This document shows positions 1 to 21,495 of a stretch of 21,495 nt of DNA, in pieces. Position 1 is the stretch's first letter. Each line of letters starts with the position of its first letter. Source of the DNA: Stramenopiles sp. TOSAG23-6 (taxonomy: Eukaryota; Sar); NCBI GenBank assembly GCA_900128565.1, contig LT636028.1, positions 1-21,495 on the forward strand, written 5' to 3'. The translations under genes were made by a program, and so were the position numbers. The notes below the pieces were generated by a model, which saw only the letters and a program-made list of their open reading frames with translations, had not been told where the DNA came from and ran no database searches.

Positions 1-225
1 AAACAGATTGTTAAAGTAGCAGAAACACCAGGTGCTCGTTGTAAAGGCCGAGTTATCTCCGTTCTAGAAGGCGGATATGACGTATCCCATTCTGACGCCC
101 TTGCTCTTTCTATACTAGCTCATGTTCAAGGTCTTCGCTATAATTCTGAAAATTCAATACGTAGAGATGATGTAAGTCATTCAATTTCTAATGAGTTGGT
201 TGGGGCTACCTCTGTGGAGAAGTGA
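1..225 (+). CDS. histone deacetylase (class II-like), C-terminal fragment
   Basis: The window opens inside an open frame (frame 1) of 74 codons ending at TGA 223-225. Near its start it reads KGRVISVLEGGYD, the signature near the end of the catalytic domain of class II histone deacetylases, followed by a helical stretch (ALALSILAHVQGLR) as expected for the last helices. The family removes acetyl groups from lysines of histones and other proteins using zinc. The catalytic His and Asp residues lie upstream of the window and cannot be checked. The last 30 residues are Ser-rich and not recognised. The following coding frame overlaps the stop and has no ATG of its own, so this enzyme may really continue into the PDZ/IQ protein (see findings). 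A canonical-looking GTAAGT at 172 was tested as a donor; no downstream AG restores frame 3. Confidence 0.75.
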   Translation, partial: KQIVKVAETPGARCKGRVISVLEGGYDVSHSDALALSILAHVQGLRYNSENSIRRDDVSHSISNELVGATSVEK

Positions 226-3200
226 AACAAAAAGATGAAATCGTTCAACCAAAGAGCTCTACAACTTCGCCAGTATCTACGAAAGCCGAAGAAACTTCTC
301 CTGAAATCAGTGTCTCGGGTAAAAAAACAAATATATTACCTCTTCCACTTGATGAACTGACACCCAACTTGACCGCAATAAAAGATGAAAAAGAGCACAA
401 TACAATACAACACATCAAAGAACATATTCAAGAAACAGAAAAAGATATCGTCCAAAGTGCGAAAAATATCAAAACGCGTATTCAAGTAACAGAAAAAGCC
501 ATCGTCAAAAGTGGAAAAAAGGTTGCTACATTTCTTACTCACCACGGTACAAATCACACCGCAAACTCAGAGGATTCTCGTACTGTTGGCTTATACTCTG
601 GTGGAAATTCTTTGCCATCTTCACCGTATCTTTATCTTCCGGAAGAAAACTTTGATTCCAAAGATATGTTCATCTCTCTGTTAAATGCATGCATGAAAGA
701 CTATGAAAGACTTTCTGTAGGTGCAGCAAATCAACCATGTAGGCGAGAACTTGAACTCATGTATAAAATAACTCCTGGTGTTAGTCTTATTCAAGCTGCA
801 AGTGGTATAAAATCGTTATCTGAGGGAGGAAATCAATGGAAATGCATCCGATGTGGTCTTTCTTTACCCCTTTCAATAAGCCCAAGTGGTATGCTTTGCG
901 ATATATGTACGTTTTCAAAATTTTATTTAAATTTTGATTTTTTTTTTTGTACTACATTTTGTAACTAACAAATTTCTAATTTGAAATATTATTTCACAAT
1001 ACATGCTCTGCTACTATAAATGCCTCAGATGCAATTTCTCATGTACACAAACCCCATTTGCTCGATAATTTGAAACGGCAAGCTTCTAGAATGTTCACTA
1101 ATACACAAGAAAAGTCTAAACAAAACAAACAATGGAAAGAAAATGAAAGAGAATTTGTTCGTTTTCATCACTACTTTCAAATTTTCTTTTTTTCATAGAA
1201 AATTCCGTACCTAATGAATTTCGAATTTGACATATTTTTTCACAGTACATGCATTGCGCGAACAAATTTTGAATGATGAGAAAGTATATAGAAAACTTTT
1301 GGCGGAACCTGTCAATGAATTAGATAAATCTTTCAATAATACAAATGATGCTGGGGATCTAACTAATCAACAGTTCACACCCCGAACACAGAAATTTTAT
1401 GATGCTTTAAATTATAGACAACTTAGAATGGAAAAAAAATCAAATAGATTGAAATACTATTATGGTGGAAATGTTGAAATGTTGAAGACGTTTGATGATA
1501 GTTATGTTGAACAAGATAGTAAAGAAACTGGAGAGATGGATATAGTTTGTTCAGATTTAACTAAGCGACTACAAGGTCTTCATCACCGAAAATTCCAAAA
1601 AGGCAAACGAAAGAAAATTGATGTATTAGTAAAAGATAAAGCACCATCTGGGATAGTTCTTAGGCATACTGGAATGACTGGAGCTGTTGTAAAGAATATA
1701 TTGAATAATAGTGCTATTGCAAAAGATGGGCGGATCAAAGAAGGTATGCGGTTAATTTCAATTGATGGTCATGAAGTTGAAACCGCACTCTTTGATGAAA
1801 TACTTAGCATGTTAAAATCACGACAAATGCAAGAGCGAACGTTAACATTTGTCTCAGATACACAGTATAGAGGTTGGGGTGTCAGAGGTCCGTGGCCATC
1901 TTTTCGAGAAAGTGAGTCCTCGTGTACAAAGATTCAATCTTTATGGCGTGGTAGAATGACAAGGATAGCAACGGTTAATGCATTGGCCAATATTGAAAGT
2001 ATGGTTGTATCAACAATAAGAGATGATCTTTTACATTTACTGCCTTCGCTCGAATCCGAAAATGAAAACAGTGCAATTATTATTGATGCTAAAGGAAAAG
2101 GACTCTCCACACATTTTGGCGATGCTTCGATTGATGCTGAATTTGGTACAAAATTGTTAAAACCATTCACATATACTCACGTTATTCGTAAAGATAATAC
2201 AATAAAAATGTTACCACGGTCCAATGCTGCTAAAAGAATAGTAGGAAGTTACCTACGTATGGTAAATGATTTAGATACAACGACGTTGTCACACGAAAAA
2301 ACAATGCTACACATTCAACGAATTGAGAGTAAACGTAAACACTGTAGGTTAGTTTTCCATAGGCACTTACCAAAAGCATCAAAACTGTCTCATATAGGTA
2401 TTAAACTTGAACGAGAGTCAAAATTTGTTCATCGCTTACGTAGTGATTTATTGCAAGCTCATGAGAATAAGCACACAGGTTTCTTTCACCATGGTTGGTT
2501 TGATTCCATCAAAGAAAAAGCTACTAATTTAGAGCATACTATTGAGCACAGCGCAGCCAATTTAGAGCATAATATAGAGCGTGGCGCAGTCAATTTAGAG
2601 CATACTATAGAGCACAGCGCCGCTACAATACTTCACCATAATCAATTACCAAAACCTATTGTATTACATTTAAAGCCAGGACCTCTTGGTATTGATATCG
2701 TGCAATGTAATTCAAATGGAGGTGCAATAATTACAAAGTTCGTACCATTAAAATCTAAAACATCTAATAGAATCGTGTATAGTACTATTGCATTAGATGG
2801 ACGAATCCGACCTGGAATGATACTATCAGCAATTAATGGTGTTGATTGCACCCAAGAAAGTTTTCATTCTTTGCAGGAATCACTTTCGCAGTCCCTGACA
2901 AGTGAGCAAGTTTTGAGTTTTCGCGCTTTATCAAAAGAGGAATTAAAGCAATTGAGTATTTTCAAAATGCATGAAATGCATCCGATAAATCGCGCAGCTA
3001 TCAAAACACAGAGAGCTTATCGTGCAATATGTCACCGACGATTACAACGTAATGGTACATGGAAAATTGAGTTTGAACCAAATAAACTTTTGAACCCAGG
3101 TAAACTTAGTAGCTTGGGTATAGTATTTGATATTCCAAAATTAGGTTTTGGGGCAAAAATAGTTCAATTTAAAACGGTGAAAAAGATGGAGAAAAATAAA

Positions 3201-3614
3201 AACGAAGTAGAACACATTCCGCAAACTAATGATGTCGAAAAAAAGAAAAAAAAGAAACACACAAAACGTGAAAAGGGTGTAAAAGATGAAAAAGAAGAAA
3301 AATATGGAAGTCAAAAAGGTATTGTTGAAAAAGGTGGCGTGCTTCCAGGAGCGTTTTTGATCAAAATCAACAAACGTGATGTTTCCTTTTTAAAATTTAC
3401 CCAAATTCTTGTGTTACTTTGGATGTTCAAACGAAAAGAAAAATTGACTCTTGAATTTGCAATGCAGACAACAGAGACGGCTAAAACTTTTGCAGCTGCA
3501 GAAGCAATGAGAAAGACTCTCGCTTTTGGAACAAATCGTATTGATAAAATTCGAGAGTCGTACACCAGAGCAGGTTTGTTGTACCAGAAAACTAATTTCT
3601 ATAATAGAGTGTAA
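222..3614 (+). CDS. multi-PDZ, IQ-motif scaffold-like protein with Cys4 zinc-finger-like segment
   Basis: Proposed exons 222-906, 1005-1156 and 1251-3614 give 1066 codons before TAA. The 5' end is unresolved: the frame opens after a stop at 192-195, has only GTG (222) near its start, and the first in-frame ATG is well inside, so the protein probably continues from upstream. Seen in order: Lys/Glu-rich low-complexity sequence; an imperfect repeat (IQETEKDIVQ / IQVTEKAIVK); a C-x2-C ... C-x2-C segment (CIRC ... CDIC) whose last Cys is completed across intron 1; a first PDZ-like domain (about nt 1615-1860); an IQ motif (KIQSLWRGRM, nt 1930-1970); three 11-residue NLEHTIEH repeats; a second PDZ-like domain (2640-2935); a second IQ-like helix (IKTQRAYRAICHRRLQR, 3000-3050); and a third PDZ-like segment interrupted by a Lys-rich insert (3055-3475). 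PDZ domains bind C-terminal peptides and IQ motifs bind calmodulin, so a membrane or cytoskeletal scaffold is inferred. The family is not recognised. Confidence 0.75.
907..1004 (+). other. introner-like intron 1 (98 nt, phase 1)
   Basis: Starts GTACGTTTTC, has a branch-like GTAACTAACAA and ends CACAATACAT before G. Joining 906 to 1005 completes a Cys codon and gives CDICSATIN, so the second CxxC pair survives. The frame-compatible downstream AG (1027-1028) would delete residues and lose that Cys. Because ATG occurs at both edges, the exact cut could shift by up to two bases left (AT-AC at 905-1002) or one right without changing the mRNA. Confidence 0.8.
1157..1250 (+). other. introner-like intron 2 (94 nt, phase 0)
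   Basis: Starts GTTCGTTTTC (the only copy with GTT), has GTACCTAATGAA as branch-like motif and ends TTTCACAGTACAT before G. Exon 2 ends at codon TTT (1154-1156) and exon 3 resumes at GCA 1251, giving EREF then ALREQIL. This copy does contain an AG (CACAG, ending 1245), but using it breaks the frame. Only TG is shared between the two edges here; an AT-AC register would change Phe to Tyr. Confidence 0.75.
2526..2624 (+). repeat. three tandem 33-nt coding repeats
   Basis: Three units (2526-2558, 2559-2591, 2592-2624), each beginning AATTTAGAGCATA, encode NLEHTIEHSAA, NLEHNIERGAV and NLEHTIEHSAA. They lie between the first IQ motif and the second PDZ-like domain, probably forming a helical spacer. 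Confidence 0.9.
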
Positions 3615-4049
3615 CAAATAGAAATAAGTGCAGAGGAGTGGCAGAGGAGTAGGCCTTAGAAGTAAACTTCGTAATATGATAAATAATCACTATGTATTTT
3701 TTTCCTTTTAATGTAAAATGTAATACAAAATAAATGTAATGTAAAATGTAATGTTAATGTAAAATTTAATGTAATGTAAAATGTAATGAAAATGTAAAAT
3801 GTAATGCAATGTAAAATGTAATACAAAATGTAAAATGTAATGTAAAAAAATACAAGACGGCGCGGGTTAGGGTTGTTGCTGACTCGATGATATTTTTTAA
3901 TCGATATATATGTATTACTATATAGTTATAGTCTCTCATTATTACTCTATCAATGACCCAAATCCAGCTGTAAACTTTTGAACCGGATAACTTTATAATG
4001 CACTATTATTTATTGTAAAATTACAAGTCAAAAGTTCATTTCCTCTACT
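3615..4049. other. intergenic region with minisatellite and telomere-like motif
   Basis: 435 bp between two same-strand genes. It contains the AATGTAAAATGT minisatellite (3710-3847), then GGGTTAGGGTT at 3864-3874, about 180 bp before the next ATG. The remainder is AT-rich and should hold the 3' UTR of the upstream gene and the promoter of the downstream one. No RNA gene was recognised. Confidence 0.7.
3710..3847. repeat. AT-rich minisatellite, degenerate AATGTAAAATGT units
   Basis: About 138 bp built from alternating AATGT and AAAATGT blocks, with variants such as AATACAAAATA and AATTTAATG. Unit length drifts between 5 and 12 bp. There are no unique spacers, so it is not a CRISPR array. It looks like slippage or unequal-exchange expansion. 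Confidence 0.85.
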
Positions 4050-5456
4050 ATGACTCTTGGTGTATTAAAACATATTTGCAAATCATTAACACCAAAGGTC
4101 TATACGAATCTGCAACGACAAGGCTATGCTGTAGTTGATAATTGTATTGATATAAATCATGTAAACATTTTAAGAAAGGAAATCAATCAGTTAAAACAAA
4201 GAAACGCACTTCATTTAAACTCAACGCGCATGGTGACGCAATGTGGCGAAAATAATCATCTTCAGAAAGATAAAATATGGGAGCTTGATCTTTTTAACGA
4301 CGAATTGCTTGATTGTGAAAATCTAGCTGCTCTTAACTCCGAAACTTGTTTAATAGAACACTTGAGCCAGAATCTCTTTACTTCTCACAATAAAATACAA
4401 ACCACACAAAGACTTAATCTACAAACAGCAAAAGTTCAGTTCAATGAAGGGGCAGGTGGTTGTTTTCCTTGGCATTTTGATACAGACCCGTTGATAGACT
4501 CGCGACGTATTACAGCAATACTTTACCTTAATCATGAGTGGGATGTGAAACATGGAGGTCAGCTATGCTTGTCTCCTTGGCCAGAGCCAACAATTAAAAT
4601 AGACCCCGTAGGTGGTCGCATTGTTCTATTTAGTTCCGCAGATATTGTGCATCGAGTCTTACCCTCTAGTGTATCTCGTTATTGTTTAACTCTTTGGTTT
4701 TGGGCGAATGACAAAAGTTCCGTAAAGCATCAAGCAACTTTCAAAGAAAATAGAGAAAATCAGGGACAAATCTCAATGTACAAACAGTGGAGAGGTGCAA
4801 ATGTTTGTACACAAACGTTAGATATGCTACAGGAAAGTATTAAAAGTCATACCGCTGAAGAAGCGGATGAAGTTTTGCGTAGAAAATGTCCAAACAAGTT
4901 AGGTTTAGATAGCGAAAAATACAAAATAGACAAGAATGATTTGTTTGCTGCACTACAAATTCTTCTTCAACCTCAGTATCGTCGACATTTGATCCGATGG
5001 GCTATTGGAGAAGAATGGGCTCAGTCCATCATTGAAAGTCATGGAAAAGGAATAGCTACTGATAAAGCTGTACAACAAATGTACGTTTTAAATGAATTTC
5101 TAATTTAATTTTTTTTCATACGAAATTTTGTACCTAACGAGTTTTTTTGAAATATTTTTTCACAATACATGTACACAGAACTTGATATCATTGAAAATAT
5201 TCTTGTTAAACTAATACAAAACTCTACGGTAATCAAAGGTTACACTTCTTCAACACCATCCAGGTTGTCATCAAAAAATGATGAAATACAGAATTCTAAT
5301 TATGCGAAAAATTTACTTCAATCATTAAGGAAATCACAGGAGTTGGAAGACTTACTACTACCTTATTATAAACGAATGAATACATTGTTGACTGATGATG
5401 ATGATGTCCAAACAAATTTACCTTTGATAGATTGGTTTGAGAAATATAATGTTTGA
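4050..5456 (+). CDS. EGLN/PHD-type prolyl 4-hydroxylase (2-oxoglutarate/Fe(II) dioxygenase)
   Basis: Exons 4050-5080 and 5171-5456 encode 438 residues; ATG 4050 is the first in frame. The double-stranded beta-helix fold is clear. The iron triad is H142-x-D144 (PWHFDTDP) and H201 (DIVHRVLPS), with the 2-oxoglutarate-binding Arg210 nine residues after the distal His. The block AILYLNHEWDVKHGGQL followed by LTLWFW closely resembles animal HIF prolyl hydroxylases (IYYLNKDWD ... ITVWYF). Such enzymes use oxygen and 2-oxoglutarate to hydroxylate proline in target proteins; in protists they act as oxygen sensors (Skp1 in Dictyostelium, for example). The substrate here is unknown. The C-terminal 220 residues, including all of exon 2, match nothing I recognise. 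If intron 3 is retained, translation stops eight residues past Met344. Confidence 0.88.
5081..5170 (+). other. introner-like intron 3 (90 nt, phase 2)
   Basis: Starts GTACGTTTTA, has GTACCTAACGA and ends TTCACAATACAT before G. ATGTAC is present at both edges, so the junction can slide over six bases without altering the mRNA; any of these gives QQMYTELDI. The nearest AG (5177-5178) leads to an immediate in-frame TGA, so canonical splicing is excluded there. Exon 2 has an open frame of 95 codons that begins exactly at this junction. Confidence 0.8.
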
Positions 5457-11143: not shown

Positions 11144-14100
11144 TCAGTCATCAGAGTCGGATTCAAAATCACTATCACCAGAAGTATTTAGTGAATCAAT
11201 TGCATTGGAACTATTTGCCACATTTTTCACAACATCCGAATCTTCAAAATCAGAATCGTCATCAAAGTCATCACTAGATCCATCTTCATTTAACGATGCC
11301 TCAATTGTACTTTGTATTGCTTCTTTTTGCTGAAGCTGGTTTTCTTCTTCCTTTTGAGCAATTCTTTCAGCTTCTAGAGCACGCTGATTTTCTATCTTTA
11401 TCTCAAGCTGTCTTTGCTGTTTTGTTGATTCGTGTTGTTGGTGGTGTTGTTGGCGATGTTGTTGTTGGTGATGCTGTTGGTGATGTTGTTGGCGATGTTG
11501 TTGGCGATGTTGTTGGTGTTGGTGTTGTTGGTGTTGGTGTTGTTGGTGATGTTGTTGGTGATGTCGTTTGTGATGCCGGTGATGTTGCTTTTCTATTTCT
11601 TCTTTTCGCCGGCGTTGGCGTTCTTCTTCCTCCTCCTGACGTTTTGCATTTGGTTCTTCTTCTTGCGCATCTCTTTCAGTTTCTATAGTACGTTGTGTTT
11701 GTCTCTCAACCTCTCGCCGTCGTTTTTGTTCTGCTGATTGTTGTTGTATTTTTTTCGTCGCTGCTTCTTCATCTTTTATCGCAACTTCCGAATCTTCAAA
11801 ATCTGAATCGCCATCAAAGTCATCACTAAATTTATCTGCGTCTAATGATGCAGATATATTTTCAGTTAGTTTTTTCTTTTTCTCTATCTCATTTGAGGTG
11901 GAATTTGATGAAGTTGAAGATGAAGAGGAATCAGAAGAGGAATCAGAAGACGAAGAGGAATCTGAAGTTGAAGTTGATGAAGAATCCGAGGACAAAGTTG
12001 AAGATATGGATGACTTAATTTGGTTACCTTGATTTGAAGTTTGTTTTGCCCTCTCCACTGATGATTGCTGATGCTTTGCTTTTGCTTCTGCTTCGGTCTT
12101 TCTTTTTGCCTCTCCTGCCTTTGCTTTTGCTTTCGCCTCGGCTTCCGCCTTTGCTTTTGCATCTGTTTTGGCTTTTGCATCTGCTTCTGCTTTAGCCTTT
12201 GCTTTTGCTTTTGCTTCTGATTCAGCCTTTGCTTTTGCTTTAGCATTTGCTTTTGCTTCTGCTTTAGCCTTTGCTTTAGCCTTTGCTTTTGCTTCTGCTT
12301 CAGCCTTTGCTTTTGCTTCTGCTTTAGCCTTTGCTTTTGCTTCTGCTTTAGCCTTTGCTTTTGCTCTTGCTTCCGCCTTTGCTTTTGCTTCAGCTTTTCT
12401 TTTTACATCTGTTTTAGCCTTTGCTTTTGCTTCTGCTTCAGTCTTTGCTTTTGCCTCGGCTTCCGCCCTTGCTCTTGCTTCTGCTTCAGTCTTTGCTTTT
12501 GCTTTAGCCGCTTCCCGTTGTTGATTTGAAAGCTTTTGTCTTCGTCTTGCTTCTTCCTTCTTCATCGCTTCGTTCTGTTTTGCGATTCTTTCTTTTTCTT
12601 GAATCGCTGCGTCTTCATCATTTAATTTTTCAGTAAAATATTTTTTTTCATTTTCTGCTTTATTCTTTTTTTTCATACTTTGATTTGCTTTAATTTCCAT
12701 ATTCCATTTCTTGATCTCATCTGCAGTAGGAAGTAGACTATGTTGGAGATATTGAAGTTGTAGAGCTTTTTCCTTATTAATATCTAAAATCTTGAAAACA
12801 ATTCGGGCATTTTTTTCATGTAAATGTAAACTCACAGCTGGATGTGAAAGACCCACGAGAAATTCCCGAAATGTTATGGAGCTACGACGACCGTCAACAC
12901 AAAACCCAAAAAATGATTCTGATGACACGTGCCGTCTCCAAAGTCTCCGTTTTACTTTCAAAAGTAATGACTCTTCTTTAAGCTTTCTATCTTGTCTTTG
13001 TTTTTCTCTTGTGACTTTGACGTCATCATTCGTCGCCTTGTCACTCGATTTAAGGTGTAATCCAAGTTCACGTCGCCTTTTATTTATATCCAATCTATGC
13101 TGAATCGATCTTCGTCTATCATGTTTTTTTCTTTTTCTTTTCATCAAATCTTCTAATGTTTGAACTTTAGATTTTACTTTCAATTCATTCTTACGAAGAT
13201 TCCGGAGTTTTTGTTTCGCAGACTTTGCCTCCGCCTTTTTTGCTACTTTCATTTCTCGTTTCACTCTTTTCGCAAGTTCTTTACGTTTGAGGTATAGTTT
13301 TCTTTGAATTTGTTTCTTCTTTTTTGTACTAATCAATTGTTTTTCTGTTCGATGTTGAAGCCTAGTTCTTTCAACCTTTGTTACCTTTAACTTATGTGCT
13401 AATTCTCGACTTATCCTTTCTTTTATCATCAGTTCTTCTTCTAATTGTTCAATTTTCGACTTTTGTACTTGAACATTGCGATCCAAAATTTGATTCCCAA
13501 TTCCACCTCCCCAAGGTTTTTTATATTGTAATTTATATTCTATTGTGCTACTATTCAAGTCAGTGTTTTTTTTGGTTTCATGGATCTTGTTCTTTTTCAA
13601 TGAAGGTAATAAAGCAGGACTAGTTTTATAACCTACCAATTTACCTCTTCGATTACGACGACTCTCTGTTAGGGCAAACATGCCTGATTCTGATCTAAAT
13701 GCAGAAATACCATTTGGATACTTTTTGGAGCCACCGTAGATAACGCCAGCAGTTCGAAGATCTCGAGCATCTTTTCGTGTACCGTCTTTGCTACTAATTC
13801 CGACTCCTTTACTAGGAACATCTTTTCGTGTACCGTCTTTGCTACTTATATCTATAATTCGTTTTTGAGTTTTATTTGTCTTGTTTAATTTACTTATATG
13901 TGATTTCCATTCATTATTAAGAGGAATTTGAGGGTATTTTGGTATACTATTCAGAGACTTTTTTCTCTCTTTCTTAATTTTTGCTGGAAAAAATAGAGTC
14001 TTTTCTATTAAATTACTTTCTATTTCAGTTCTCTCTGCTTCAAGTTTCAACTTCTGGCGACGATCAATTGTTTCTAGATAATTCTTGTATGGTATTTGTT

Positions 14101-16264: not shown

Positions 16265-18374
16265 ATGATGCAAATTTCTCGCGTTTTCTCAAGAGTTACT
16301 GTGGCATCTTTGACACAAACGCGTCTTCTTCGTGAACGTAATGTTACTTTTTTTTCATCACTGTCGGATGGTCCACTTGTAAGGTATAATAAAATGGTTT
16401 CCACAAAAAGATTGACTCATGATGATGCACAAGCGGCTGCTCTAGTTCCTCTACAGAGGCTTCATGAAGAACTTGAAGGATACGAGGCATCCGAAGTTGT
16501 AATACCTGAAGAAATGGACGATACGAGTGCGTTGAGTGGGATGTTTTCCACCGTCACAAATTTCTTTGCTTCGGCTGTAGATGCTCGTAACTCAAAACAG
16601 CGATACGACCCAGCAACACGTACGTGGTCCCATGTAAATACTGAGAAAGACACAGAAAGAACGAAAAAACGGTCTGAAGCTATAAGTGATGCCATTGAAG
16701 AAGCACGGAAAGACATGCCTCTTGGTGTGTATCTTCATGGTGGTGTTGGCTGTGGCAAGACAATGTTAATGGATATGTTCTTCGAAGGAGCCTCTCCAAA
16801 ACTGAAACGCCGAGTCCATTTCCATGCGTTTATGCTTGAAGTTCATGAAAGAATGCATACCTTGCGTAAAAATGGGCTTGAAGGCGACCCAATCCCAACG
16901 GTCGTAAAGGATATTAGTCAAAATTGTTCTTTACTTTGCTTCGATGAGTTTCAGGTAACTGATGTTGCTGATGCCCTAGTTATGCGTCGGTTATTTTCAC
17001 TATTAATAGATTATCATGGAGTCATTGTTGTAGCAACATCAAATCGCCCACCAGATGATTTATATCACAATGGAATTCAAAGGGATTTATTTCTTCCTTT
17101 CATTAAAAGATTAAAGAAATGCACACATGTTCATGATATGGAATCACCAACAGATTTTAGATTATTAGGCACAGACGCTAGATCAATGTATTTACTTCCT
17201 TGCGATTCTCGAGAAAAGCAAATCGAATCACTTTTCCAAAAATTGACAAAAGGAACAGAAACGAAATCTGCAACTTTAACATCCCAAGGACGTCAAGTCC
17301 ATGTATGTTTTATTTTTTTTTTAAACAAAAAAATCGATTTTTTTTCGTACGAAATTTTGTACGTAACGATTTTTTTTTTGAAATATTTTTCCAAAATACA
17401 TGCCCCATGTGTAAGTGAGAATAATGTAGCTAAGTTTACTTTTGCACAACTGTGTCGCGAACCACGTGGTGCAGCAGATTATATCACACTTTCAAAGGCT
17501 TTTCATACATTTTTCTTATTGGATGTTCCTGTTCTAGGTCCAGATGATATTAATCCAACTAGACGATTCATCACACTGATTGATGCATTATACGAAGCTA
17601 GAGTGAAGCTTGTCGTTTCTGCTGCTGAAGTTCCCGAAAAATTGTTACGAGAAGAACATTCGAGTCAGTCAAGTGGAGGACCTAGAGGAGATTTAATAGG
17701 AACTGATGACTATGTATGTTTTATTTTTTTTCAAATTTGATTTTTTTTTTATAGTAAATTTTGTACCTAACGATTTCTTTTTGAAATATTTTTCCAAAAT
17801 ACATGTTCCTTTCCAAAAAGATGAAGCATTTGCTTTTGATCGAACGATATCTCGATTGATTGAAATGCAAACTATTCAATACATAACAGCAGCTCACCGA
17901 CGAGATGGTGGTGAGAGTCAAGTAGAAGTATTAAAAACAGTTTTGTTTAAACGCTCCAAGAGTGGTTCTTCTTATAATCTATCCAAATCATCTAATATTA
18001 ATCAACAACAATTGAGAGAACTATTTGATACATATGATGTTGACTCGGATTTGGTGTTGTCAAGAATAGAAATGCAGCAATTGTTAGAAGATTTTTCTTT
18101 TATACGACATGTACGTTTTCATCTTGAATTTATTTTTTTTTCGAATTCATTTTTTTTCGTAGTGAATTTTGTACCTAACAAATTATACAAAAAATAAATT
18201 TTCACTATACATGGACACAGATCTGTTGATCTTGATTTAGTAGATAAATTATTTGATATAATAGATATAAATATGAATGGTTCGTTGGATTTTGAGGAGT
18301 TTAGTACATTTTCTGAAAAATTTGGACTTGCTTCTTTGACAAAATGGCTACCAACAACAAGTGTAAAAAAATAA
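16265..18374 (+). CDS. AFG1/LACE1-family mitochondrial ATPase with C-terminal EF-hand pair
   Basis: Exons 16265-17302, 17402-17713, 17805-18110 and 18213-18374 encode 605 residues. The N-terminus (MMQISRVFSRVTVASLTQTR) is basic, Ser/Thr-rich and non-acidic, as in mitochondrial presequences. The AFG1 P-loop domain is clear: Walker A GGVGCGKT (159-166), HFHAFMLEVHERMH (185-198), Walker B LLCFDEFQVTD (223-233), sensor region ATSNRPPDDLY, then FTFAQLCREPRGAADYI and RRFITLIDALYEARVKL, finishing FAFDRTISRLIEMQT. AFG1 proteins act in mitochondrial protein quality control and cytochrome oxidase subunit turnover. After the usual end of the family come two canonical EF-hand loops, DVDSDLVLSRIE and DINMNGSLDFEE, so calcium probably modulates the ATPase. 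Intron 6 splits the EF-hand pair. Three introner-like introns fall in the 3' half only. Confidence 0.9.
17303..17401 (+). other. introner-like intron 4 (99 nt, phase 0)
   Basis: Starts GTATGTTTTATTTTT, contains the palindrome TTCGTACGAA and branch-like GTACGTAACGA, and ends CCAAAATACAT before G. CATG is present at both edges. Joining 17302 to 17402 gives GRQVH-APCVSENNVAKFTF, placing Pro where the family has its VP. A frame-compatible AG at 17418-17419 would delete six residues including that Pro. The intron is 99 nt with no in-frame stop, so unspliced RNA would still be translated through it. Confidence 0.85.
17714..17804 (+). other. introner-like intron 5 (91 nt, phase 0)
   Basis: Starts GTATGTTTTATTTTT, has GTACCTAACGA and ends CCAAAATACAT before G. 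ATGT is shared at both edges. Joining 17713 to 17805 gives DDY-VPFQKDEAFAFDRT, restoring the family's conserved DE-FAFxRT block. The next AG (17819-17820) is out of frame. Confidence 0.88.
18111..18212 (+). other. introner-like intron 6 (102 nt, phase 0)
   Basis: Starts GTACGTTTTC, has GTACCTAACAAA and ends TTCACTATACAT before G; CATG at both edges. Joining 18110 to 18213 gives SFIRH-GHRSVDLDLVDKLF and keeps the normal spacing between the two EF-hands. The next AG (18219-18220) is out of frame and leads to TGA. This copy is the most diverged in its 3' third (ATAAATTTTC in place of GAAATATTTTTC). Confidence 0.85.
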
Positions 18375-18577
18375 AAATATATGAAAAATACACAAATTTG
18401 AATTTTTTTACAATTGTCATTGAAATAAAAATGTCGGCAGAGTACCGGGAAACCGGGTAAAGAAAAATTTTAAAAATTCTTTGAAAAATAACGCTCGAAA
18501 AATGTTTTCAAAAAATATATCTAGTTGTCTAGCAGTGTATAATCTAATGTGTGTATCTTACAAAGCGAGATGAATAA
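18375..18577. other. intergenic region between AFG1 and CEP131 genes
   Basis: 203 bp, very AT-rich. It contains ACCGGGAAACCGGGT at 18443-18457, a short direct repeat of ACCGGG. It should hold the 3' end of the ATPase mRNA and the promoter of the next gene. Confidence 0.5.
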
Positions 18578-20770: not shown

Positions 20771-21495
20771 TTATAGAGGAGATGAAATAAATCTAAAAAA
20801 ATCAATAATGTCATTACATTCTTCATTAGAGATCATATTACATTTGTTTACATCATTAGCTACTGGAGAATTTGGAGATGGCTCTCTACTACTGCTATTT
20901 CCTTCACTCCCGCTTGTTAATTCAGATGCCCGAGTACTACACATTTTATTAGGGTTAAGATTTCCTTTCAAANAGGNTTTTTTTNCNAGGTCTCGTTTTT
21001 TGCTCATTTCTGATAAATGCAATTCGCTGAAGTTTGCTACCATTCCAATATGGATTTTCCATGTCATTTGGATGAGGGGAAATCAGCATATTATGACGAT
21101 GCTGTTTTTTTAATGACATTATAGAAGATGATTGTCGTATGGGTCGCCCGCCAGGACTTCTTCGTGTCTGTTGTGACATACGTTGAGCAGCTGGTAAGCG
21201 ACGAATTGGATTAGGCCTCTTGGCAGAGCCAAAAAAATTTGGTGAATCGTTTGCTGTTGTATGGGGTGTTGGTAACTTTGGTTTACCGCTATTTATAAGT
21301 CGTTCTGTTCTATTTCGAGGAATCGTAAATATTGGATATTTCGTGGAAAAATATTTACGATCAAAACATTCGTTAGGTATGCGGTTTTCATAGTAAAAAA
21401 AAGTAGATAAAAATTCAATTCTGAAAACATACACCGTGTATTTTGGAAAAATATTTCAAAAAAAAATTCGTTAGGTACAAAATTTCGTACGAAAA
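20771..21495 (-). CDS. unrecognised protein, 3' part (5' end outside window)
   Basis: The last exon runs on the minus strand from about 21335 to TAA 20773-20771, preceded by two introner-like introns. Its predicted sequence is basic and Pro/Ser/Asn-rich (LINSGKPKLPTPHTTANDSP, RRSPGGRPIRQSS), then a better-ordered block (MENPYWNGSKLQRIAFIRNE), then an acidic C-terminus (NEECNDIIDFFRFISSPL). Four undetermined bases at 20973, 20977, 20985 and 20987 sit in a homopolymer, and the frame changes across them, so an indel there is very likely an assembly artefact. No domain recognised. Confidence 0.55.
21336..21432 (-). other. introner-like intron 8 (about 97 nt)
   Basis: On the minus strand it starts GTATGTTTTCAG (from 21432), has CATACCTAACGAATG and continues TAAATATTTTTCCACGAAATAT. 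The end is diverged: no ATACATG is present. The nearest equivalent end is AATAT at 21336; a slightly later end, or an AG farther downstream (AATAG, 21316-21312 region), cannot be excluded because the upstream exon is not available to fix the frame. Confidence 0.6.
21436..21495 (-). other. introner-like intron 7, 3' part
   Basis: The minus strand enters the window within the conserved core (TTCGTACGAAATTTTG then TACCTAACGA) and ends CCAAAATACAC before G. It is nearly identical to intron 4 over about 58 bases. The end reads ACAC in place of ACAT. Its 5' half lies beyond the window. Confidence 0.75.

Follow-up and report, generated by a model that had tools for sequence, protein, structure and literature searches.

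Introner-like repeat elements in a presumed marine stramenopile: ordinary 5' splice and branch signals with a probable 3' site that lacks AG

Through analysis of the window (the whole stretch of 21,495 nucleotides, contig C78), six forward-strand segments have been recognized as members of one repeat family, which is spread across an assembly of 8.03 Mb in 408 contigs. The initial annotation had placed introns without a 3' AG at these positions, and indeed none of the six ends in AG (0/6). These elements are most probably introners, MITE-like and bordered by a 2-bp target-site duplication, which U2-type splicing would remove despite their unusual 3' site. The family, the duplication, the sense orientation and the restored join are visible in the sequence itself; the evidence being genomic DNA and not transcripts, the splicing of the elements from RNA by U2-type machinery is what we infer. 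As is characteristic of introners, many similar copies occupy unrelated genes as putative introns, a role assigned from the reading frame. The host appears to be a member of the marine single-celled plankton that carries hundreds of mobile-looking elements as introns in its genes. The segments and the genes concerned are listed below.

907..1004, forward strand: intron 1 of 98 nt (GT...TACAT); its gene is PDZ-like, a name given by reading; edge copies AT/AT; the join restores CDIC
1157..1250, forward strand: intron 2, 94 nt, a diverged copy with a GTTCG donor, a CTAAT branch-like motif and the repeat TT/AT
5081..5170, forward strand: intron 3, 90 nt, in the 2OG-Fe(II) oxygenase gene; repeat AT/AT
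17303..17401, forward strand: intron 4, 99 nt, in the AFG1 gene; the restored residues APxVSEN are present in relatives
17714..17804, forward strand: intron 5, 91 nt, in the AFG1 gene
18111..18212, forward strand: intron 6, 102 nt, in the EF-hand part of the AFG1 gene
225..3614, forward strand: gene with a provisional start, split by introns 1 and 2 and open once both are removed
4050..5456, forward strand: 2OG-Fe(II) oxygenase, 438 aa without intron 3 (PF13640)
16265..18375, forward strand: AFG1-like ATPase carrying EF hands at its C-terminus; 605 aa without introns 4-6 (PF03969, E 5e-92; PF13499)
21436..21495, reverse strand: 3' portion of one more element, which the contig end truncates; its ATAC is followed by AC

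The six segments start with GTACG, GTATG or GTTCG and end in TACAT^G (^ marks the junction); a CTAAC-like motif is found in each, with the variants GTAAC (17303) and CTAAT (1157). On the reverse strand another element starts with GTATG at 21432 and runs downwards, three bases past the AC copy of the 21436 element. These two elements thereby stand nearly head to tail with GGT between them, and a similar tandem seems to be present in L007. The window also contains long coding repeat runs, mostly of 12-base spacing, inside a 1100-aa minus-strand ORF (11394-12571), and an intergenic AATGTAAAATGTAATG-type repeat tract (3707-3850).

The design shared by the six segments and the family is NN^GTAYGTTTT...TTTTGTACCTAAC...TTTTTYCAAAATAC^NN. 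The element body (GTAYGTTTT…TACCTAAC…AAAATAC) is T-rich and mostly about 85-110 nt long. Genome-wide, the branch 15-mer TTTTGTACCTAACGA has 526 exact copies (0 for the reversed control), and the 14-base 3' terminus TTTTTCCAAAATAC has 603 copies in all. Near-identical contigs or inverted duplicates occur in the assembly (C13/C14, also C27 13950/14390 and C2 7551/26522), and since some contigs, such as C13 and C14, are near-duplicates, the 603 terminus copies are not 603 independent events. Several contig ends (e.g. C38, C54, C208, C233) fall about 40-60 bases inside an element, an indication that copies of the family interrupt the assembly. The bases following the terminus are AT in 538 copies; AC, AG or AA in 36 (15, 12 and 9, respectively, by the author's count from the match listing); and C, G or T comes first in 29. 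The terminal AG expected of a U2-type intron thus follows in only 12 of the 603 copies. Searches of IMG/VR for viral carriers with two exact family patterns gave no match; one pattern returned 40 stretches there, 5 of them matched by a loose motif.

The 5' end and branch motif had been read as ordinary major-spliceosome-like signals, and in agreement with this both GTAYGT and TACCTAAC are conserved across the family. (i) The position weight matrix (PWM) of the 5' site, built from 84 elements, gives G.94, T.90 and A.95, then G.96 and T.97, in accordance with the U2-type form GT(A/G)NGT; (ii) TACCTAAC is exact in 97 of 110 reads, many of those elements having been located via a looser form of the motif; (iii) the distance from the branch A to the 3' end has a median of 37 nt (10th-90th percentile 34-46 nt, 61 elements). 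U2-type branch motifs follow YTNAY and lie some 18-45 nt from the 3' end, a pattern to which TACCTAAC at 34-46 nt conforms. The proposal that only the final splicing step may be altered is consistent with the conservation of GTAYGT and TACCTAAC. A minority of elements (L051, L054, L062, L064, L085, L094, L099, L110) start with ATATG or ATACG in place of GT, some of them among the frame-tested copies; these copies may reflect additional loosening at the 5' side, or else a boundary that has moved.

The origin of the last two bases is indicated by the edges of the elements. Element ends were located by PWM for 84 of 122 branch-motif hits within about 208 kb (an earlier regex pass had located the two ends for just 32 of the 122); the stretches used for statistics come mostly from contigs listed as carrying the motif, and a few elements with a miscalled 3' end (e.g. 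GAAATAT in L007 and L049) were kept in the counts. The dinucleotides before GTAT and after ATAC are identical in 61/84 elements. Among distinct elements the figure is 60/81, compared with a permutation mean of 42.5 and a largest value of 52 in 10000 permutations. As a control for the abundance of AT, 40 loci were chosen solely by a non-AT 3' copy. The 5' end was found in 34 of these, and 18 have identical edges (the pairs being TT, AC, GT, CT, AG and AA); for distinct elements this is 16/31, where permutation gives a mean of 3.7 and at most 10. The direct repeat is two bases long (NN), mostly AT, and not the three-base ATG reported in the initial annotation; the exon continues with G in 53% of the 104 distinct elements whose frame is confident. 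Ten dinucleotides were called as the last two bases of the intron, AT being by far the commonest. Given the matching edge dinucleotides, the element looks inserted with a 2-bp target-site duplication, as introners are, and the last two bases of each segment are then target DNA. The missing AG would accordingly be a by-product of insertion, the final two bases of the intron coming from the duplicated target. AG-ended copies with an intact terminus and both ends visible amount to 9 distinct elements, 6 of which carry AT as the 5' copy; this would suit an AT-to-AG change within the intron, although the numbers are too small for a test.

The removal of the elements from coding sequence was evaluated with frame calls on both flanks, using a codon model for which 59 long ORFs served as the training set. 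The flanks were sufficient for 77 elements, and in 65 of these each flank scored positive. Removing GT...ATACNN keeps the frame in 58/65 (a third expected; binomial p about 1e-20), the other two classes holding 3 and 4. Some of the 7 misfits have badly called ends, but in L056 8834 (AT/AT) and L064 7661 (GG/GG) the ends are well formed and the frames clear, and these two count against the model. The flanking sequence is sense on both sides in 62/65 cases and antisense on both in 0/65. This orientation bears on excision at the DNA level, which would make splicing unnecessary. Ciliate internal eliminated sequences are removed precisely with one target copy left, and the exact removal deduced here matches them in this respect; the present elements are, however, strongly orientation-dependent, contain splice-like internal signals and come from records whose names point to a stramenopile, so that such excision has a negligible probability.

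With stricter margins, removal of the element plus one repeat copy leaves 55/61 in frame without a stop. The first AG past the branch keeps the frame in 16/61 (13 without a stop) and the nearest AG in 17/59 (16 without a stop); joins at an AG found by either rule were rejected, their frame fit being no better than chance. Element lengths are evenly spread modulo 3 (22, 20 and 19 of 61). Retention and translation of the segments was likewise discarded, as only 20/61 are a multiple of 3 and 42/61 contain an in-frame stop. An AG between branch and 3' end is present in 30/105 elements, with a mean of 0.31 per element and a composition expectation of 0.68; it is rarer than expected, yet tolerated.

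The joined proteins agree with their relatives. It had been claimed that frame or conservation fixes the AFG1 joins, and the ACAT^G join does produce an open frame and a protein gapless at 3/3 introns in comparison with relatives at 61-62% identity. At intron 4, QVH^APCVSEN aligns to LVKAPRVSEN, and the family Pro that the non-AG join was said to keep is nearly invariant at that place among relatives; at intron 5, GTDDY^VPFQKDEAFAF aligns to GTAEYVPFQKDEAFAF, and at intron 6, FIRH^GHRSVD to FLRVGHRNVD. The putative zinc-ligand Cys at intron 1 is recovered as well, the ACAT^G join restoring the second CxxC of a CxxC...CxxC motif. Further joins are gapless in PP1 (FDNAGG^MM, compared with solved PP1), in an AAA ATPase at Walker A (FLFY^GPPGTGKT) and in HSP70 on contig C83, where three family introns are each bridged without a gap in the alignment to solved HSC70. 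Three joins of an ATP-grasp-like protein are in register with 79 homologues; close to the joins some homologues carry insertion columns, among them a run of 12 that follows the Gly, and at the second join a Thr stands where 70/75 homologues carry Pro.

Public gene models give different joins. The AFG1 and HSP70 proteins of this genome match EukProt records named GSMAST32.ASY1.ANO1 at 99% identity across the aligned residues. The source of these records is inferred to be the MAST-3 stramenopile single-cell genome of Seeleuthner 2018 (PMC5778133), although the label GSMAST is absent from the main text of that paper. These models (P0001, P0135) contain forced AG joins, and conserved residues are dropped or changed at 6/6 of them (three in AFG1, three in HSP70); stretches are also lost elsewhere, within open exons. 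Due to the losses at the joins and elsewhere, the models are taken as prediction errors and not as RNA evidence. With models wrong at all six joins compared, the public gene set of this ocean protist is probably damaged widely. The same models could be cited for splicing at an ordinary AG near the element ends, with wrong frame calls on our side: they use AG joins in the same organism, if they stem from PMC5778133 the pipeline there also used transcript alignments (according to part of that paper), and 23/61 elements do have some frame-keeping, stop-free AG within -25 to +30. This explanation is nevertheless very improbable, since the scanned or nearest AG stays at chance for frame, and residues that AFG1 and HSP70 relatives conserve are missing from the AG-based models.

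The exact register of the cut is a separate matter, because with identical repeat copies it can shift by up to two bases silently. In the AT-AC register, ^NNGTATG...ATAC^, the elements would resemble U12- or U2-type AT-AC introns; this is silent and equivalent wherever the repeat copies match (61/84), and the 3' end would become a constant AC, while the 5' dinucleotide would be arbitrary. The copies differ in 34/110 distinct elements, 30 of them with a confident frame. Keeping the 5' copy (GT...ACNN) produces 0 stops in these 30 introns, a one-base shift 3, and keeping the 3' copy (AT-AC) 4, two of the last in introns that do not end in AG. In L064 2380 (copies GC/AT, intron ending in AT) the 5' copy encodes a Gly present in 70/71 homologues with a letter there, whereas the AT-AC register yields Asp; a one-base upstream shift also gives Gly. 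In L058 2402 (AT/AG) the NH of solved SET-domain relatives is kept only with the 5' copy. U12-type introns have the 5' site RTATCCTT and the branch TTCCTTAAC close to the 3' end; the family has GTAYGTTTT, TACCTAAC and a median of 37 nt from the branch A to the 3' end, a longer distance than in U12 introns. The preference for GT-AT over AT-AC expressed in the initial annotation is thus upheld by the stops and the conserved Gly. To judge from the genomic sequence, AT-AC as a general rule is refuted, and as an explanation of the family it is quite unlikely. Between the GT register and its one-base neighbour, the former is favoured in a non-AG intron by one case only (L064 5438), whose own 3' end is mutated.

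Removal independent of the spliceosome, through pairing of the ends as in euglenid nonconventional introns, is somewhat less improbable but still unlikely. The elements have inverted ends, although short ones (GTAT...ATAC, then TTTT/AAAA past a bulge), and direct repeats at their edges; at least 4 end pairs form in 37.5% of 112 folds, compared with 11.9% of shuffles, and the mean energy is -9.7, compared with -7.8. This pairing is weak and depends little on the individual element, with -1.40 kcal/mol for an element's own ends and -1.23 when ends are swapped between elements. The compensation expected of euglenid introns is absent, position 4 being a C opposite A in 27/112. In euglenid nonconventional introns a strong 5' site and branch motif are not known to be conserved, unlike in the present family.

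U2-type splicing remains the favoured explanation, and components of the machinery are recognizable in the assembly. Prp8 is strongly conserved across 1466 matched residues. A U2AF65-like ORF of 654 aa (L071 1105-3069, reverse strand, contig C376) begins with an RS-rich region, contains two RRM1-like domains and closes with a UHM-like part; TIGR01642 and PDB searches gave no match at the position we assign to RRM2. This protein could bear on 3' site choice. Searches for U6 snRNA, U2 snRNA and U2AF35, run without a positive control, found no match in the assembly, which is probably partial. A GT-AG intron outside the family was identified at L066 6710-6808 (AG^GTAAGT...TTACAG^G), across which the three internal 32-residue repeats of the host protein are in register, as judged by eye; ordinary AG splicing is therefore very probably present in the same nucleus. 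The scan for other introns left 24 non-element candidates to be read by eye; several were missed family members, and one was a clear GT-AG intron. A stricter scan gave 3 AG candidates and 3-8 for other endings, that is no excess of AG, and missed the L066 intron.

The following sequence of events is proposed. A short MITE-like element would insert with duplication of a 2-bp target, AT before G being preferred. The U2-type spliceosome would then remove the element from pre-mRNA: GTAYGT would be recognized by U1 and U6, and TACCTAAC by U2. At the 3' side the cut would come two bases past AAAATAC, which is conserved, at a distance of some 37 nt from the branch A, and would be largely indifferent to the identity of those bases, these being the second target-site copy. 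The missing AG would be tolerated by a spliceosome that probably still handles ordinary GT-AG introns. The 3' choice may depend on a relaxed or altered U2AF, or on a second step guided by AAAATAC and branch distance, a guess modelled on the U2AF paralogues of Fritillaria as partly described in PMC13326754. More tentatively, and with somewhat less than even confidence, the 3' site may be picked without any terminal dinucleotide, being measured from the branch and AAAATAC with any NN accepted. If so, such an intron could invade almost any site, free of AG, beside normal GT-AG introns.

The intron-terminal AG is among the most conserved eukaryotic signals, and its selection in the second step is still debated. 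One family that keeps its 5' and branch signals while the last two bases vary would be a ready-made experiment on AG selection, and an insertion that sets the ending of the intron would be a simple route to dispensing with AG. A literature search restricted to open-licence papers found no title on such introns in MAST, and term searches of PMC5778133, PMC8163842 and PMC12614181 found no description of them in the parts of text returned.

The comparison with known systems rests on parts of the cited papers. The closest precedents are the introners of Amoebophrya and the introns of Fritillaria. The RNA-seq-backed introners of Amoebophrya A25/A120 (Farhat 2021, PMC7789003) form many families in genomes where U1 was not detected. 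They resemble the present elements as introns of a repeated kind whose edges bear direct repeats and whose ends are inverted, and in their non-canonical sites and mobile-element-like spread. However, they have no clear terminal dinucleotides, inverted repeats of 8-20 nt and direct repeats of 3-5 nt, whereas here one main family with near-constant GTAYGT and TACCTAAC and a 2-bp repeat deviates mainly at the 3' end, in a host taken as a stramenopile. In Fritillaria borealis (PMC13326754) divergent U2AF paralogues read non-canonical 3' ends; the large-scale loss of the 3' AG to AT and AC is a shared feature, as would be the U2-type spliceosome and the implication of U2AF changes. The differences relate to its AG/AC and AG/AT introns, altered 5' sites and YAY triplets, demonstrated on RNA, in contrast to the ordinary GT deduced here from DNA. 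The TIR/TSD introners of Gozashti 2022 (PMC9860276) also derive splice sites from the duplicated target, and in some of them the element carries the 5' site and co-opts the 3' site; in the portion of that paper compared, GC and GA 5' sites are named as rare variants and no AG-less 3' site is described. In euglenids and hemistasiid diplonemids (PMC12621601), noncanonical introns share direct repeats (euglenids) and end pairing, and a MITE origin has been proposed for them; they are reported to lack U1-pairing 5' sites, while in the present family the 5' site and branch are strong and the pairing is weak. Introners, splice sites derived from a TSD and mostly AG-less genomes are thus each already known singly, as far as these portions of PMC7789003, PMC9860276 and PMC13326754 describe them. 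What is new is the lineage, together with the combination of strong, ordinary 5' and branch signals and a 3' end formed by nothing but the target duplication.
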